Positions 21,334-26,438 of a stretch of 42,587 nt of DNA are shown piece by piece. Below the pieces are notes generated by a model. That model had not been told where the DNA came from, did no database searches, and was given only the letters and a program-made list of their open reading frames with translations. Position 1 is the first letter of the stretch, and every line of letters starts with the position of its first letter. The stretch is taken from NCBI GenBank assembly GCA_017539165.1, contig JAFYHN010000043.1:1-42587 (forward strand), written 5' to 3'. The position numbers and the translations under genes were made by a program. Source of the stretch: Eubacterium sp. Lineage in GTDB: Bacteria; Bacillota; Clostridia; Lachnospirales; Lachnospiraceae.

Positions 21334-22035
21334 TTGATTGTAGCAGTTTGCGATGACAACAGAGGGTGCAGGCGTGAGATTAAAGCAGAGTGTGAAAAAA
21401 TCCTTAAAAGTAGTGATATAAAGTTTGATATTCATGAATTCAGTAATGTGCGTGCACTTATGAAAGAGCTTTCGAATATTGATATATTGCTTTTGGATAT
21501 AGAGCTCGGAGAAGATAGCGGCATCGAGGTGAAGAATTATATCGAGGAGAATGAACTTGATATAATAATTATTTTTATTTCCGGATATACGGCACATATG
21601 CCGGAATCATTCGGTTTAAATGTTATGGGATTTATAGATAAAACCGATATATCAGGAATGCTTCCTAAGTATATGGAAAAAGCTCTTACCAGAAAGGGCA
21701 ATGTTACTGGCTTCATCGGAACTATAGATGTAAGAAATATTAAGTATATTCAGTCAAATGGTGTATATGTGGATATAGTCAAAAATGACGACACTAAAGT
21801 TTTGTATCGTGCGACAATGAAAGAGATGGAAACAAAACTGACGGGTCTGAATTTTAGCAGGGCGCATAGATCCTATATCATCAATCTAAAGTATGTCAGC
21901 AGGATAGATGCAGGACTGGACGGAAGCAGATATGCCTTTTTGGGAAATGATAAAATAAAGATATCGAAAAGACGGTATCCTTCATTCAGAAAAGAGTTTT
22001 CTGATTTTAGCAGAAAGCGAGCGGGGTATATGTGA
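21334..22035 (+). CDS. LytTR family response regulator (AgrA/ComE-like)
   Basis: DNA-binding response regulator of 233 residues. The receiver domain (1-120) has the acidic pair Asp7-Asp8, phospho-acceptor Asp55 in LLLDIELGEDSG, and a Lys near 98 (GFIDKTD). The LytTR domain (about 130-230) includes DVRNIKYIQSNGVYVDI, FSRAHRSYIINLKYV and KISKRRYP. The only in-frame start that keeps the receiver intact is TTG 21334, with AGGAGG 13 bases upstream, a long spacing. The stop overlaps the kinase start as TGATG. Regulators of this kind usually bind tandem sites about 21-22 bp apart, matching the array at 23350-23428. Confidence 0.9.
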   Translation: MIVAVCDDNRGCRREIKAECEKILKSSDIKFDIHEFSNVRALMKELSNIDILLLDIELGEDSGIEVKNYIEENELDIIIIFISGYTAHMPESFGLNVMGFIDKTDISGMLPKYMEKALTRKGNVTGFIGTIDVRNIKYIQSNGVYVDIVKNDDTKVLYRATMKEMETKLTGLNFSRAHRSYIINLKYVSRIDAGLDGSRYAFLGNDKIKISKRRYPSFRKEFSDFSRKRAGYM

Positions 22036-23297
22036 TGGAGCTTTATTTTGTTTATTTGTGGGGATTGCTTGAGTCACTAAAAATATTCTTGGTGTTCCAT
22101 TTTGTTATGGGATTTCAGCACAGGAAGAATATTTTTGTTTATCTTGTTGTGTTATATCCGACTGTTGCTCTTCCTTGGGCGGCTGTGCATGATCCGACTA
22201 ACTTGCCGATATACAAAGCTATCTGGTTATTTGTTTTTCCAATCATATTCTTCAGTGGTAAGTTAGTTCCCAAAACTGTATTTGCGATGGTAGTGACTAC
22301 GCTTATATCTATATTTGATATAATCGTAATAAATGGTCTGACGATATTAAGAGTTCCAGCTTCTATAATGTCAGATTTAGGAACTGCGATCTCATTTTTG
22401 CTGATTGTGATCATTGCGATGTTGAGCCGCAAATACAATAAAACAGTGAATGAAGCTATAATGTCATTTAAACCGATCATGAATGCTGGAGTATTCATGG
22501 TGTCATTCATTCTTTATATATGGGTTGGAATGCTTGAGATCATGTTTCGGGCAGAAGCTGAAAGCAGACTATCCGAGTTTATATCTGTAATCAGTATCAT
22601 TGTAGCTGCAGTTACGGCATTTCTGGTTACAATGGGACTATACTATATTACCAGAATCAGACAGATGACGGCAATAGATGAATATAAGAGTAAACTTCTG
22701 GATATTAATCAGCAGTATGTAGATGCTTTGATAGAAAGAGAACGAGATCTTAGAGGTTATAGGCATGATTTTAATAACCATATGATTTTGATAAAAAGTA
22801 TTGCTTCTGAGCATAGTGATAGTGAGATAGTCAAATACATAGATAGCATATTTAGTAAATATGAGATTAAAAATGTTATCTCTGTGGGAAATAAGATAGC
22901 GGACTTATTTGTAAATAAAGTTCTGAGCGAGATGTCCGGTGAAGAGGATTTTGTCTGTGATGTAAAAGGGAAGATCCCATCTCAGTTCAGGATGGATAAT
23001 GTAGATATGTGTACGCTTATGTCGAACATCATGGATAATGTTCAGGAGGCGCTTAAAAAGTTTAAAGGAAAAAAGAAACTAAAGATTGAGATATCACATT
23101 ATGAGCAGATGCTTTATATAGACGTAAATAATTCTGCACTGCCGGAGGATAAAGCACTCATGTCATTAAAGAAAGAACCCGGTCATGGATTTGGGGTAAA
23201 AAAAATAAGAGATGTTGTCGAAAGAAATGGAGGAGTGGTCCAATGGGTCTACGATGACAACATGATGTTACTAAAGATTGAACTGCCAATAAGATAA
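22035..23297 (+). CDS. AgrC/ComD-like GHKL sensor histidine kinase
   Basis: Membrane sensor kinase of 420 residues. About six or seven membrane spans fill residues 1-207, then a dimerisation helix with RGYRHDFNNHM holding the phospho-acceptor His244. The ATPase part has the N-box SNIMDNVQEALKKF (330-343) and a glycine-rich GHGFGVKKI near 386-394. This fits the HPK10 class that pairs with LytTR regulators and often senses small peptides. ATG 22035 overlaps the regulator stop. The operon ends at the hairpin 23301-23336. No AgrB-like processing protease is nearby, so an Agr-type cyclic signal is not supported. Confidence 0.9.
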   Translation: MELYFVYLWGLLESLKIFLVFHFVMGFQHRKNIFVYLVVLYPTVALPWAAVHDPTNLPIYKAIWLFVFPIIFFSGKLVPKTVFAMVVTTLISIFDIIVINGLTILRVPASIMSDLGTAISFLLIVIIAMLSRKYNKTVNEAIMSFKPIMNAGVFMVSFILYIWVGMLEIMFRAEAESRLSEFISVISIIVAAVTAFLVTMGLYYITRIRQMTAIDEYKSKLLDINQQYVDALIERERDLRGYRHDFNNHMILIKSIASEHSDSEIVKYIDSIFSKYEIKNVISVGNKIADLFVNKVLSEMSGEEDFVCDVKGKIPSQFRMDNVDMCTLMSNIMDNVQEALKKFKGKKKLKIEISHYEQMLYIDVNNSALPEDKALMSLKKEPGHGFGVKKIRDVVERNGGVVQWVYDDNMMLLKIELPIR

Positions 23298-23300
23298 AAA

Positions 23301-23336
23301 TGGTACAAAGGAGGAGGCCTTTGTATCATTTTTTTT
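23301..23336 (+). terminator. Terminator of the two-component operon
   Basis: TGGTACAAAGG (23301-23311) pairs with CCTTTGTATCA (23318-23328), one G-U pair, 6-base loop, then eight T. Confidence 0.9.
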
Positions 23337-23349
23337 GTCATTATCATTT

Positions 23350-23428
23350 CCCGTTTATAACATTTTTGGAGCCCGTTTATAACATCAAAGAAACCCGCTA
23401 GTAACAAAAATACCCCCGCTTGTAACAA
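23350..23428 (+). repeat. Tandem array of four 14-bp elements, candidate LytTR binding sites
   Basis: CCCGTTTATAACAT at 23350-23363 and 23372-23385, CCCGCTAGTAACAA at 23394-23407, CCCGCTTGTAACAA at 23415-23428. Start-to-start distances are 22, 22 and 21 bp, two helical turns. The shared pattern is CCCG(C/T)TnnTAACA, with A in place of the T in copy 3. The array ends five bases before a -35 element. Known AgrA/ComE sites are direct repeats of similar spacing near promoters, so binding by the adjacent LytTR regulator is likely but inferred. Confidence 0.85.
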
Positions 23429-23433
23429 ATGGG

Positions 23434-23462
23434 TTGATTGTATAAAGTGATAAATATATATT
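23434..23462 (+). promoter_or_regulatory. Promoter behind the repeat array
   Basis: TTGATT (23434-23439), 17-bp spacer, TATATT (23457-23462). It would start transcription about 55 bases before the 19-codon ORF. Confidence 0.6.
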
Positions 23463-23523
23463 GGATATGCGGCAATAAATTGGATATATTGAACAAAAAA
23501 TGATGCGAAAGGAGGTATATATT

Positions 23524-23583
23524 ATGATTTATGGCGATTGCGAAGTAGTAATGGAAATTGTAAAAAGACTTTTTGGTTTATAA
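23524..23583 (+). CDS. 19-residue peptide ORF (candidate signal or leader peptide)
   Basis: The ORF encodes MIYGDCEVVMEIVKRLFGL and ends in TAA. AAAGGAGG (23508-23515) sits eight bases before the ATG, as good a ribosome binding site as any in the window. It lies behind the repeat array and promoter and 66 bases before the VTC-domain gene. The peptide has one Cys (position 6) and a hydrophobic C-terminal half with KR, possibly an amphipathic helix. There is no signal sequence and no AgrD-like tail. Roles that fit are a pheromone, a membrane-active peptide, or a translated leader. I do not recognise a family; being translated is supported only by the start signals and context. Confidence 0.5.
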   Translation: MIYGDCEVVMEIVKRLFGL

Positions 23584-23596
23584 GAAATACGTTATA

Positions 23597-23635
23597 AGAT
23601 GGCACGAATTTATTAGACATAACTGGTCATCTTAA
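23597..23635 (+). promoter_or_regulatory. Inverted repeat between the peptide ORF and the VTC gene
   Basis: TAAGATG and CATCTTA flank a loop of about 25 bases, just before the GGGG ribosome binding site of the VTC gene. It could act as an mRNA hairpin; evidence is modest. Confidence 0.3.
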
Positions 23636-23649
23636 AAGGGGATGAAAAA

Positions 23650-24423
23650 ATGACAAATGGTGGTTTTAAAGAGAGCTTTGCACGAGTTGAGATAAAATAT
23701 TCGGTACCTGCTAACAAGTACAAAGCCCTTCTGGAAAGATTAAGCGAATATATCGAACCGGATGAATATGGAGATACAAGAATATATAACATATATTATG
23801 ATACTCCTGATTATCGGTTGATAAGAAAGTCGCTCAGTAAACCTATATATAAGGAAAAGCTGCGACTGAGAACCTACAAGGTGCCGAATGAAAATACTAG
23901 TGCATTTGTAGAGATTAAAAAGAAGTATGACGGTATTGTATACAAGCGGAGGATAAGTCTTCCGTATGGAGTTGCCAAGTGGCATCTCGATCACAGCATT
24001 CCATTTACGGAGATGAACAATCGTTCAATAATTGGAAAGAGTGCATATACTGATGTCCAGATTGAAAATGAGATCAACAGTATGCTTGATCTTTATAAGG
24101 ATTTAAGACCTGGAATGATGGTGTCATATGACAGACTGGCATTCCGCGGAATAGAAAATCCTGATTTTCGAATAACATTCGACAAGAATATCAGATGGAG
24201 AAACACGGAGCTGGATTTGACGAAAGGAGGCTACGGAAACCCTCTTCTGAGAAATGATGAAAGAATAATGGAAATCAAAATATCGGAAGCTATGCCCATT
24301 GAGATAGCAAGAATTCTCAGTGAGCTACAAATATATAAGACCTCGTATTCAAAATACGGGAATGGCTATATCCAATTGCTAGAAAATGAGAGACATATGA
24401 AAGGAATTAAGAAGTATGCGTGA
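23650..24423 (+). CDS. VTC-domain protein (polyphosphate polymerase domain family)
   Basis: Soluble protein of 257 residues with the VTC triphosphate-tunnel fold. In yeast Vtc4 this domain makes polyphosphate from ATP. Conserved charged strands are visible in order: ARVEIKYSV, YYDTPDYRLIRKSL, KEKLRLRTY, AFVEIKKKYDGIVYKRR, MVSYDRLAF, RITFDKNIRWR and MEIKIS. These supply the Lys, Arg and Glu residues lining the tunnel, so the site looks intact. It overlaps the next gene by eight bases. The domain is often beside DUF4956 membrane proteins in gut Firmicutes. Polyphosphate synthesis is family knowledge; activity here is inferred. Confidence 0.87.
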   Translation: MTNGGFKESFARVEIKYSVPANKYKALLERLSEYIEPDEYGDTRIYNIYYDTPDYRLIRKSLSKPIYKEKLRLRTYKVPNENTSAFVEIKKKYDGIVYKRRISLPYGVAKWHLDHSIPFTEMNNRSIIGKSAYTDVQIENEINSMLDLYKDLRPGMMVSYDRLAFRGIENPDFRITFDKNIRWRNTELDLTKGGYGNPLLRNDERIMEIKISEAMPIEIARILSELQIYKTSYSKYGNGYIQLLENERHMKGIKKYA

Positions 24424-25096
24424 TATTGTTTTAGGCACAATTATTCAAAATGGAAAGATAACATTAGCAAGCTTTGCTGCAGCAACTTGCGTTTCACTTA
24501 TATGTGGACTTGTAATTGCTGGAGCGTACATGATAAAGCATACATACAGTCAGAGTTTTATAATCAGTCTGGTACTGCTGCCCTGTGTAGTACAGATGAT
24601 CATAATGCTTGTAAATGGAAACATAGGAACAGGAGTTGCAGTAGCCGGAGCGTTTGGACTTGTAAGATTCAGATCTGCTGCAGGAAGGGGACAGGAGATA
24701 ACGAGTATATTCCTGACCATGGCCACCGGACTGGCGACCGGTATGGGTTACATTACCCTGGCACTTATCTTTGCGGTATTCATATCAATCATAGATCTGG
24801 TACTTAGACTTATGAATTTCGGTGGCAAGGATGAGGCGTCAAGAAACCTTAAGGTAACTATTCCTGAGGACCTTGATTTCGAAGGAAGATTTACGGAAAT
24901 ATTCGAAAAGTATCTGGACAGAAGTCAGCTTGTTCAGGTAAAGAGCTGTAATATGGGTACTATGTTCAAGCTTGACTATGAAGTTATAATTAAACCAGCA
25001 ATGAGCGTAAAAGAATTCCTTGATGAAATAAGAGAAAAGAACGGAAATCTTGAGATATTACTTTCCAGAGCAGAGGGGCATCCTGATGAGTTATAA
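24416..25096 (+). CDS. DUF4956 family membrane protein
   Basis: Membrane protein of 226 residues with four hydrophobic spans in the first 130 residues and a soluble C-terminal part of about 90. The GAFGLVRFRSAAGRGQEITSIFLTMATGLATGMGYI block is the diagnostic DUF4956 motif. The C-terminal domain resembles the small ferredoxin-like domain of MgtC-type proteins. It overlaps the VTC gene by eight bases and the next gene by 11, so the three are translationally linked. Function is not established; a membrane partner of the VTC protein is the natural inference. Confidence 0.85.
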   Translation: MRDIVLGTIIQNGKITLASFAAATCVSLICGLVIAGAYMIKHTYSQSFIISLVLLPCVVQMIIMLVNGNIGTGVAVAGAFGLVRFRSAAGRGQEITSIFLTMATGLATGMGYITLALIFAVFISIIDLVLRLMNFGGKDEASRNLKVTIPEDLDFEGRFTEIFEKYLDRSQLVQVKSCNMGTMFKLDYEVIIKPAMSVKEFLDEIREKNGNLEILLSRAEGHPDEL

Positions 25097-26438
25097 GAAA
25101 CATTTAAGAAACTTAATGATCGTGGCAACATTTCTTTTGACGGGATGTTCTGTAAATATGGCAGAGGCGACCGGCGGAAATGAGTACTTTACCGATCGTG
25201 ATAGAAATGCTGTTGTTGATGAAAACAAATCTGCTGTTGTGAATTTTATTGGTGACAAAGCAGACATTGATTATCGCGGATTGGACGAATCGACTGCTAA
25301 GGTTTCGACTGGAGATAGTGGTAAGGTATCATTGATGATCAACAAAGAAGGGACATTTATTCTAAAGGGAAATAGTCCTTATGCCGAAATAGTGGTTGAC
25401 ACAGATAATGCATCCAAGGTTGAACTGGTTTTGGATTCGGTGGAGCTCACAAATATAGATGGAGCAGTTTTATTCGTGAAAAAAGCAGACAAAACATTTA
25501 TCAATTGCGCTGCTGACAGTGTGAATAAATTTTCCGATACAGGAGAAAAATATACAGATGAGACGGGTGCGAATGCTGTTATATACAGTAGAGATGATGT
25601 TGTATTCCATGGAAGCGGAAAGCTTGATGTAAACGGTGGTTACAAGTACGGTATCGTGAGTGAGAATGATATCAAGATTCTAGGTATTGAACTATCTGTT
25701 CAAGCAAAAAAAACAGCGATCACAGCAAATGATTCTCTCAGGATATCTGATGGAAAACTTACGTTAGTATCAGGAACTGATGGACTTCATGTTGATGAAG
25801 GATTCTTCTATGAGGAGAATTCCAATATCTCAGTGACCTGTGAAGATGATGCTATCCATGCTACAACTGATCTAACCATAGGTGGTGGAGAACTGAATAT
25901 AACGCGGTGCCGTGAAGGACTTGAGGGACATAATGTTTTAATAAATGGTGGAGATATAATGATAAATGCCATCGATGACACTATGAATGCTTATGGAGAA
26001 GGAGATGAACCCCCTTGCCTCACAGTCAAAGACGGAAACCTTACATTATTATCAGAGGGTGACTGCCTGGATTCAAACGGTGCGGTTATAATAGATGGAG
26101 GTAATCTGATCCTTTCAAGTAAAGCGGAGGATGACGATGGTACTATCGATGCGTTAGGTGGACTCTACATTAATGGAGGTACACTTATAGCAACGGGAAG
26201 ATCAAAGGTGTCAGAGGTTGTAAATGATGGTTCAAGACAGAACTATATATATGCAACTTCGGACAAGGTTATTCCTGCGGGACACAGTCTAAGAATAACT
26301 GATGATAGTTCAAATGAACTCTTGGCTGTAAGTCCAAGTGAAGATTATTCTTCTGTGTTCTTCACGACCAGTGGAATGAAAAAAGGTTCTTACCATGTGA
26401 TCATGGGTGATGATGATGTGGTAACAGAACTAAAATAA
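25086..26438 (+). CDS. Lipoprotein with carbohydrate-binding, DUF4353-type repeats
   Basis: Surface lipoprotein of 450 residues. The signal peptide ends in LLTGC, giving Cys20 as the lipidated residue. The remainder is rich in short beta-strand repeats with turns such as DGLHVDEGF, DDAIHATTDLTIGGGELNI, EGLEGHNVLINGGDI, GDCLDSNGAVIIDGG and DGTIDALGGLYINGG. This is the right-handed beta-helix pattern of DUF4353 (carbohydrate-binding domain-containing) proteins. ATG 25086 is chosen with GAGGGG seven bases upstream; it overlaps the DUF4956 stop by 11 bases. These proteins often occur with VTC/DUF4956 and CotH genes. CotH is not present here. Confidence 0.8.
   Translation: MSYKKHLRNLMIVATFLLTGCSVNMAEATGGNEYFTDRDRNAVVDENKSAVVNFIGDKADIDYRGLDESTAKVSTGDSGKVSLMINKEGTFILKGNSPYAEIVVDTDNASKVELVLDSVELTNIDGAVLFVKKADKTFINCAADSVNKFSDTGEKYTDETGANAVIYSRDDVVFHGSGKLDVNGGYKYGIVSENDIKILGIELSVQAKKTAITANDSLRISDGKLTLVSGTDGLHVDEGFFYEENSNISVTCEDDAIHATTDLTIGGGELNITRCREGLEGHNVLINGGDIMINAIDDTMNAYGEGDEPPCLTVKDGNLTLLSEGDCLDSNGAVIIDGGNLILSSKAEDDDGTIDALGGLYINGGTLIATGRSKVSEVVNDGSRQNYIYATSDKVIPAGHSLRITDDSSNELLAVSPSEDYSSVFFTTSGMKKGSYHVIMGDDDVVTELK

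Follow-up and report, generated by a model that had tools for sequence, protein, structure and literature searches.

Four repeats before a VTC-domain operon in a rumen Eubacterium probably form an operator of the neighboring LytTR response regulator

The window (the whole stretch of DNA analyzed, 42,587 nucleotides of a Eubacterium sp. genome) comes from a rumen bacterium. It contains an array of four short direct repeats that adjoins predicted cell-surface genes. The array follows the genes of a regulator-kinase pair and precedes a predicted operon for VTC-domain, DUF4956 and Cthe_2159-family proteins. The features of the locus, in window coordinates, are as follows.

21334..22035, + strand: response regulator with receiver and LytTR domains (TTG start; Pfam)
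22032..23297, + strand: AgrC-like sensor kinase with a GHKL ATPase domain (Pfam HATPase_c_5, 60 bits, cut-off 22)
23296-23333, + strand: terminator-like hairpin of the regulator-kinase operon (sequence search)
23350-23363, + strand: repeat 1, distal pair (14-mer CCCGTTTATAACAT, 9-mer CCCGTTTAT)
23372-23385, + strand: repeat 2, distal pair, identical to repeat 1 (14-mer CCCGTTTATAACAT, 9-mer CCCGTTTAT)
23394-23407, + strand: repeat 3, conserved promoter-proximal pair (14-mer CCCGCTAGTAACAA, 9-mer CCCGCTAGT)
23415-23428, + strand: repeat 4, conserved promoter-proximal pair (14-mer CCCGCTTGTAACAA, 9-mer CCCGCTTGT)
23434-23462, + strand: predicted promoter TTGATT-17-TATATT (promoter search; same distance in six genomes)
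23524-23583, + strand: 19-aa ORF MIYGDCEVVMEIVKRLFGL, behind AGGAGG and after the promoter
23650..24423, + strand: VTC-domain protein (Pfam VTC, 139.1 bits, cut-off 23)
24416..25096, + strand: DUF4956 protein (Pfam DUF4956, 55 bits, cut-off 30.6)
25086..26438, + strand: Cthe_2159-family carbohydrate-binding protein (Pfam Cthe_2159, 194.6 bits, cut-off 25.8)

The regulator combines a receiver domain that has a phosphoacceptor with a LytTR domain (LytTR, 67.9 bits, cut-off 22.6; Response_reg, 36.8 bits, cut-off 30.2), as expected of a two-component LytTR response regulator. Residues D7, D8, D55 and K103 are invariant in all six orthologs, the window regulator included, and its FSRAHRS segment matches the FhRhHRS motif (PMC4227749) except at the second position. 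Comparison of the regulator with solved structures gave four matches, all receiver-type (best E 0.0014), so base contacts were not mapped. NCBIfam offered no name for the kinase or the operon proteins. The two AgrB matches in the window genome lie on contigs C79 and C95, with none on the regulator's contig (C32). We do not assign the pair to Agr quorum sensing, as no agrB stands beside the kinase and regulator.

All four copies of the 14-mer described in the sequence-only reading were confirmed, at 23350, 23372, 23394 and 23415, with start-to-start distances of 22, 22 and 21 bp and the last copy ending 5 bp before the -35 hexamer. Its placement of the array behind the terminator of the regulator-kinase pair also held, with the terminator-like hairpin preceding repeat 1. 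Counted from repeat 4, the offsets of the other copies are -21, -43 and -65 bp, which puts them on about the same face of the helix. The array exceeds chance, because CCCGYTNRTAACA did not appear even once in 5000 dinucleotide shuffles of 23298-23649. Across the whole 3.2-Mb genome, the motif pattern occurs six times (two matches for its backward control): four times in the array and once each within two unrelated genes, an L,D-transpeptidase-like gene on the opposite strand and a glutamyl-tRNA synthetase-like gene (both named from reading the ORF). Neither the full motif nor any of three pair patterns revealed a second array in this genome.

The predicted promoter consists of TTGATT (23434-23439) and TATATT (23457-23462), separated by 17 bp. 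The hexamers alone are weak evidence, since 21 promoter-like sites were found against 21.2 in shuffles; the call is supported by the constant position of the hexamers in relatives. According to PMC4847170, nearly all LytTR response regulators use 9-11 nt repeats with 11-13 nt spacers and no common consensus. PMC6193735 describes 9-mers for LytTR operons; most of their spacers are 12 bp and some are 11 or 13 bp long, and there is a strong preference for a distance of 10 bp to the -35 that follows. Written as LytTR 9-mers, the array reads CCCGTTTAT-13-CCCGTTTAT-13-CCCGCTAGT-12-CCCGCTTGT-10-(-35). Its spacers of 13, 13 and 12 bp agree with the known layout of ~9 bp repeats with 10-13 bp spacers, and the 10 bp between the repeat-4 9-mer and TTGATT are constant in six genomes. 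The sequence-only reading did not recognize the motif from AgrA or ComE. This is corrected here: the motif resembles known LytTR repeats, such as the pair ACCGCTTGT-12-ACCGCTTAT that Table 3 of PMC6193735 lists for Staphylococcus carnosus. The same source gives the BrsR operator as ACCACTTAT-12-ACCGCTTAT. We did not take motif similarity alone as proof, because LytTR sites share no common consensus.

Among 295 genomes, only G245 and the one containing the window matched a narrow pair pattern (G numbers denote the genomes compared). Orthologs were sought by protein because the relatives' repeats differ from this pattern. A search of 146 related genomes with the regulator matched 33 at E 1e-15 or better. 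Close orthologs occur in six genomes, the window genome included (G004, 94% identity; G029, 58%; G001, 48%; G027, 45%; G045, 45%), and the next match falls to 34%. Five of these genomes have the VTC operon downstream of the regulator. The exception is G001, where the two are on separate contigs and the repeat pair still precedes VTC. The kinase gene lies between regulator and VTC in the window, G004 and G029, and there is none there in G027 and G045. Among eight genomes searched, kinase orthologs were found in G004 (88%) and G029 (53%), the next match being 29% or below, and were absent from G027, G045 and G001. The kinase therefore cannot be needed everywhere. The G004 and G001 genomes are incomplete (58 and 71%). 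Around more distant regulators (29 loci, L022-L050, flanks of at most 1.5 kb), VTC lies only beside L025 and L026, both orthologs; the 24 loci L027-L050 all lack it within those flanks. No open-access paper linking LytTR with a VTC domain, or DUF4956 with VTC, was found.

A promoter-proximal pair precedes VTC in every genome in which a regulator ortholog was found (6 of 6). Read from the sequences by hand, its spacing is 21 bp in the window, G004 and G029 and 20 bp in G027, G045 and G001, corresponding to 9-mer spacers of 12 and 11 bp, respectively. In every case, 6 bp separate AACA from the hexamer TTGA.., after which a 17-bp spacer leads to TATATT or TATAGT. A matrix was built from ten sites in the five relatives and excluded those of the window; it ranked the window copies 1-4 among 85,150 positions on both strands (repeat 4 first, repeat 2 second, repeat 1 third with a score tied to that of repeat 2, repeat 3 fourth). 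We then scored the best pair upstream of VTC at 31 loci: 29 of the 30 loci listed by the search, a paralog in the window genome (L093), and G004 through L055. L067 was left out because its contig begins inside the gene. With leave-one-genome-out scoring, the six ortholog genomes reached 16.5-31.2 (weakest G001, 16.5, and G029, 16.9), against 8.5 or less at the 25 other VTC loci, the paralog among them. The weakest positives stand only slightly above the reversed-sequence controls (n=31), which had a top score of 16.0, followed by 3.0. The 6-bp-TTGA arrangement, judged at the best-scoring pair of each locus only, was present in 6/6 ortholog genomes and 0/25 other loci. Because the six genomes all belong to a single group of relatives, they are not independent trials. 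Two looser pair patterns were noisy: the first matched 39 times across 27 of 61 genomes, compared with 12 matches for its backward control, and the second 26 times across 21 of 61, compared with 9. The second also missed the sites in G045 and G001, which have divergent repeats.

Among those matches whose surroundings were inspected, related sites stand elsewhere in the relatives. G029 (Eubacterium ruminantium) contains a second copy of the 162-bp operator-promoter stretch (93% identity) and therefore probably a second target; the copy (L135 8690-10611, G029:C25) precedes genes for a radical-SAM/ABC-ATPase fusion and a membrane protein. G028 has no close regulator ortholog (best 32%) and carries identical TTCGTAACA pairs before two tandem operons (L136 7570-14182, G028:C24) encoding a small secreted protein and transporter-like (FtsX/ABC-like) proteins. 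By reading, these pairs are followed by AACA-6-TATGCA-17-TACAGT, lacking TTGA. The small protein is putatively lactococcin-972-like, but neither Pfam nor NCBIfam matched it. The G028 pairs may be read by a different LytTR protein. An alternative for the window operator, likewise, is binding by another LytTR protein of the cell, alone or in competition, in the way that PlnC and PlnD share their repeats (PMC2714321). Any of the 11 LytTR matches in the window genome might do so. We consider this unlikely, as the pair before VTC tracks the regulator ortholog without exception, its layout is missing from the best pair of the 25 other loci, and the regulator and VTC operon adjoin in all ortholog genomes but one.

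In relatives, GTAACA/GTAATA-like boxes about 11 bp apart stand before Amidase_3 genes (L146 and L155; L150 by similarity) and before a choline-binding-repeat gene (L162). These boxes look WalR-like. Repeats 3-4 contain GTAACA, and TGTAACA-like boxes before cell-wall genes of relatives, themselves loose pattern matches, could mean that the sites belong to a WalR/OmpR-type regulator instead of a LytTR protein. This is very improbable: the array is spaced at 22, 22 and 21 bp with no 11-bp steps, and both the distance to the -35 and the link to the LytTR gene are conserved.

The sequence-only reading named missing conservation of the array in relatives as a refuting result, and for the proximal pair this did not occur. 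Four copies were seen in the window genome only; the five relatives have two, including the closest, G004. There, the sequence between terminator and pair is different and longer: roughly 120 additional bp containing short inverted repeats (L055 10005-10125) take the place of repeats 1-2. In G029, G027 and G045, the pair closely follows the terminator. The simplest reading is that repeats 1-2 were gained in the window lineage, with their loss in G004 as an alternative. Repeats 1 and 2 are identical 14-mers, which would also suit a neutral tandem duplication with no regulatory role, or else the array could be part of a transcribed RNA element. Either is highly unlikely. The array lies upstream of the predicted promoter, it folds worse than shuffles (z +1.30; 184/200 shuffles at least as stable), no Rfam family reached its gathering score, and repeats 3-4 have counterparts in five relatives. 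The RNA element was rejected on the folding and Rfam results. Closer to the VTC gene, just 5' of its ribosome site, a hairpin at 23584-23650 was more stable than most shuffles (z -2.66; 5/200 as stable), and G004 has a similar stem before VTC (z -1.74; 10/200).

The repeats, their geometry and their conservation with the regulator and the VTC operon can be read directly from the DNA. We infer from them, with a probability of roughly 0.8, that the LytTR response regulator whose gene lies immediately upstream uses the array as its operator. The idea that the array is this regulator's target was already part of the sequence-only reading; the LytTR layout speaks for it, as does the pair at ortholog loci, whose arrangement is missing from the best pair of the 25 other VTC loci, and binding itself stays a predicted step. 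We take the downstream VTC-DUF4956-Cthe_2159 operon, and not the one that encodes the regulator, as the likely target. Words of the CGTAAACG type also occur before the regulator gene of G045 (two copies, L060 9660-9790, minus strand) and G027 (one copy, L059 3790-3830), possibly as an autoregulatory site.

In the proposed mechanism, the regulator would be phosphorylated, bind the array and activate, rather than repress, the VTC operon, whose genes would be co-transcribed. Repeats 1-2 would probably take a second dimer and add occupancy. The switch-like control that the sequence-only reading suggested for four rather than two sites gained no support: four copies occur in this genome alone among those compared, and LytTR operators with three repeats are already on record (RcoM1, CoxC; PMC11347149). 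PlnC and PlnD are described as binding cooperatively as dimers (PMC2714321). The opposite sign of control is improbable, with the regulator repressing from its site and either the distal pair or a weak promoter-like match overlapping repeat 1 (TTGTCA 23335, TAACAT ending 23363) being what matters. Some LytTR proteins do repress, namely CoxC (PMC11347149) and PlnD (PMC2714321). However, the CoxC sites overlap the -35 (PMC11347149), whereas the window repeats lie upstream of it, as in LytTR activators. Promoter-like matches here are also no commoner than in shuffles. The position 10 bp after repeat 2 holds AAACCC and no -35-like hexamer, so the distal pair lacks its own promoter in that layout.

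Among characterized systems, the array is closest in form to the operators of the HdrRM/BrsRM LytTR Regulatory Systems (LRS), which PMC6193735 describes as 9-bp direct repeats like ACCGCTTAT with 11-13 bp spacers, usually 10 bp upstream of the -35. Those operators have two repeats and precede the regulator's own operon; an LRS regulator has no receiver domain, is autoregulated and is paired with a membrane inhibitor encoded after it (PMC6193735). In contrast, the window regulator has a receiver domain and is followed by a GHKL kinase, and its four-repeat array precedes VTC, setting the locus apart from the LRS. As two-component LytTR regulators with direct repeats upstream of promoters, PlnC/PlnD and AgrA at P2/P3 are also similar (PMC2714321, PMC4227749), and the pln repeats share the length of 9 bp with 12-bp spacers (PMC2714321). 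They differ in that their targets belong to peptide quorum sensing (PMC2714321, PMC4227749), the pln repeat has the sequence TACGTTAAT (PMC2714321), and the -35 and -10 of the Agr promoters lie 18 and 20 bp apart, compared with 17 here (PMC4227749). Two repeats per operator are usual but not a strict requirement, as the operators of RcoM1 and CoxC have three (PMC11347149), and we therefore file the four repeats as a copy-number variant. The RcoM1/CoxC operators likewise go beyond two LytTR repeats per promoter and space them evenly, although these are 8-bp repeats of different sequence read by CO-responsive regulators (PMC11347149). No four-repeat LytTR operator was found among the open-access literature matches listed; PMC6222199, which deals with an OmpR-family regulator, was set aside.

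The 19-aa ORF between promoter and VTC has counterparts of the same length behind AGGAGG in G004 (MIFADCEVIMEIVRRLFNL) and G029 (MILFDSEVIVQLVKFILGL); in the window and G004, the frame could also begin at in-frame starts that make it longer. The window and G004 versions differ at 11 of 60 bases, of which 2, 4 and 5 fall at the first, second and third codon positions, and so small a number does not prove selection for coding. In a strict pattern search of 295 genomes, the ORF was found in the window, G004 and G029 only. The same three genomes alone have a close kinase ortholog among the eight searched; neither ORF nor kinase ortholog was found in G001, G027 and G045. The joint presence may reflect a single evolutionary event, and we regard it as a lead for a peptide loop. 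In such a loop, the peptide would be a signal or membrane-acting modulator of the AgrC-like kinase, working with no adjacent AgrB. The regulator would induce the peptide together with the VTC/DUF4956/carbohydrate-binding surface operon, and the doubled operator would tighten this minimal loop. We consider this scheme unlikely.

Taken as the regulator's operator, the array would be a genuine and largely ordinary control site, unusual mainly for its four predicted docking sites. The window and its nearest relative would offer a natural comparison of a four-site with a two-site LytTR operator, and the operator reading would give the VTC-DUF4956-Cthe_2159 operon a testable input.
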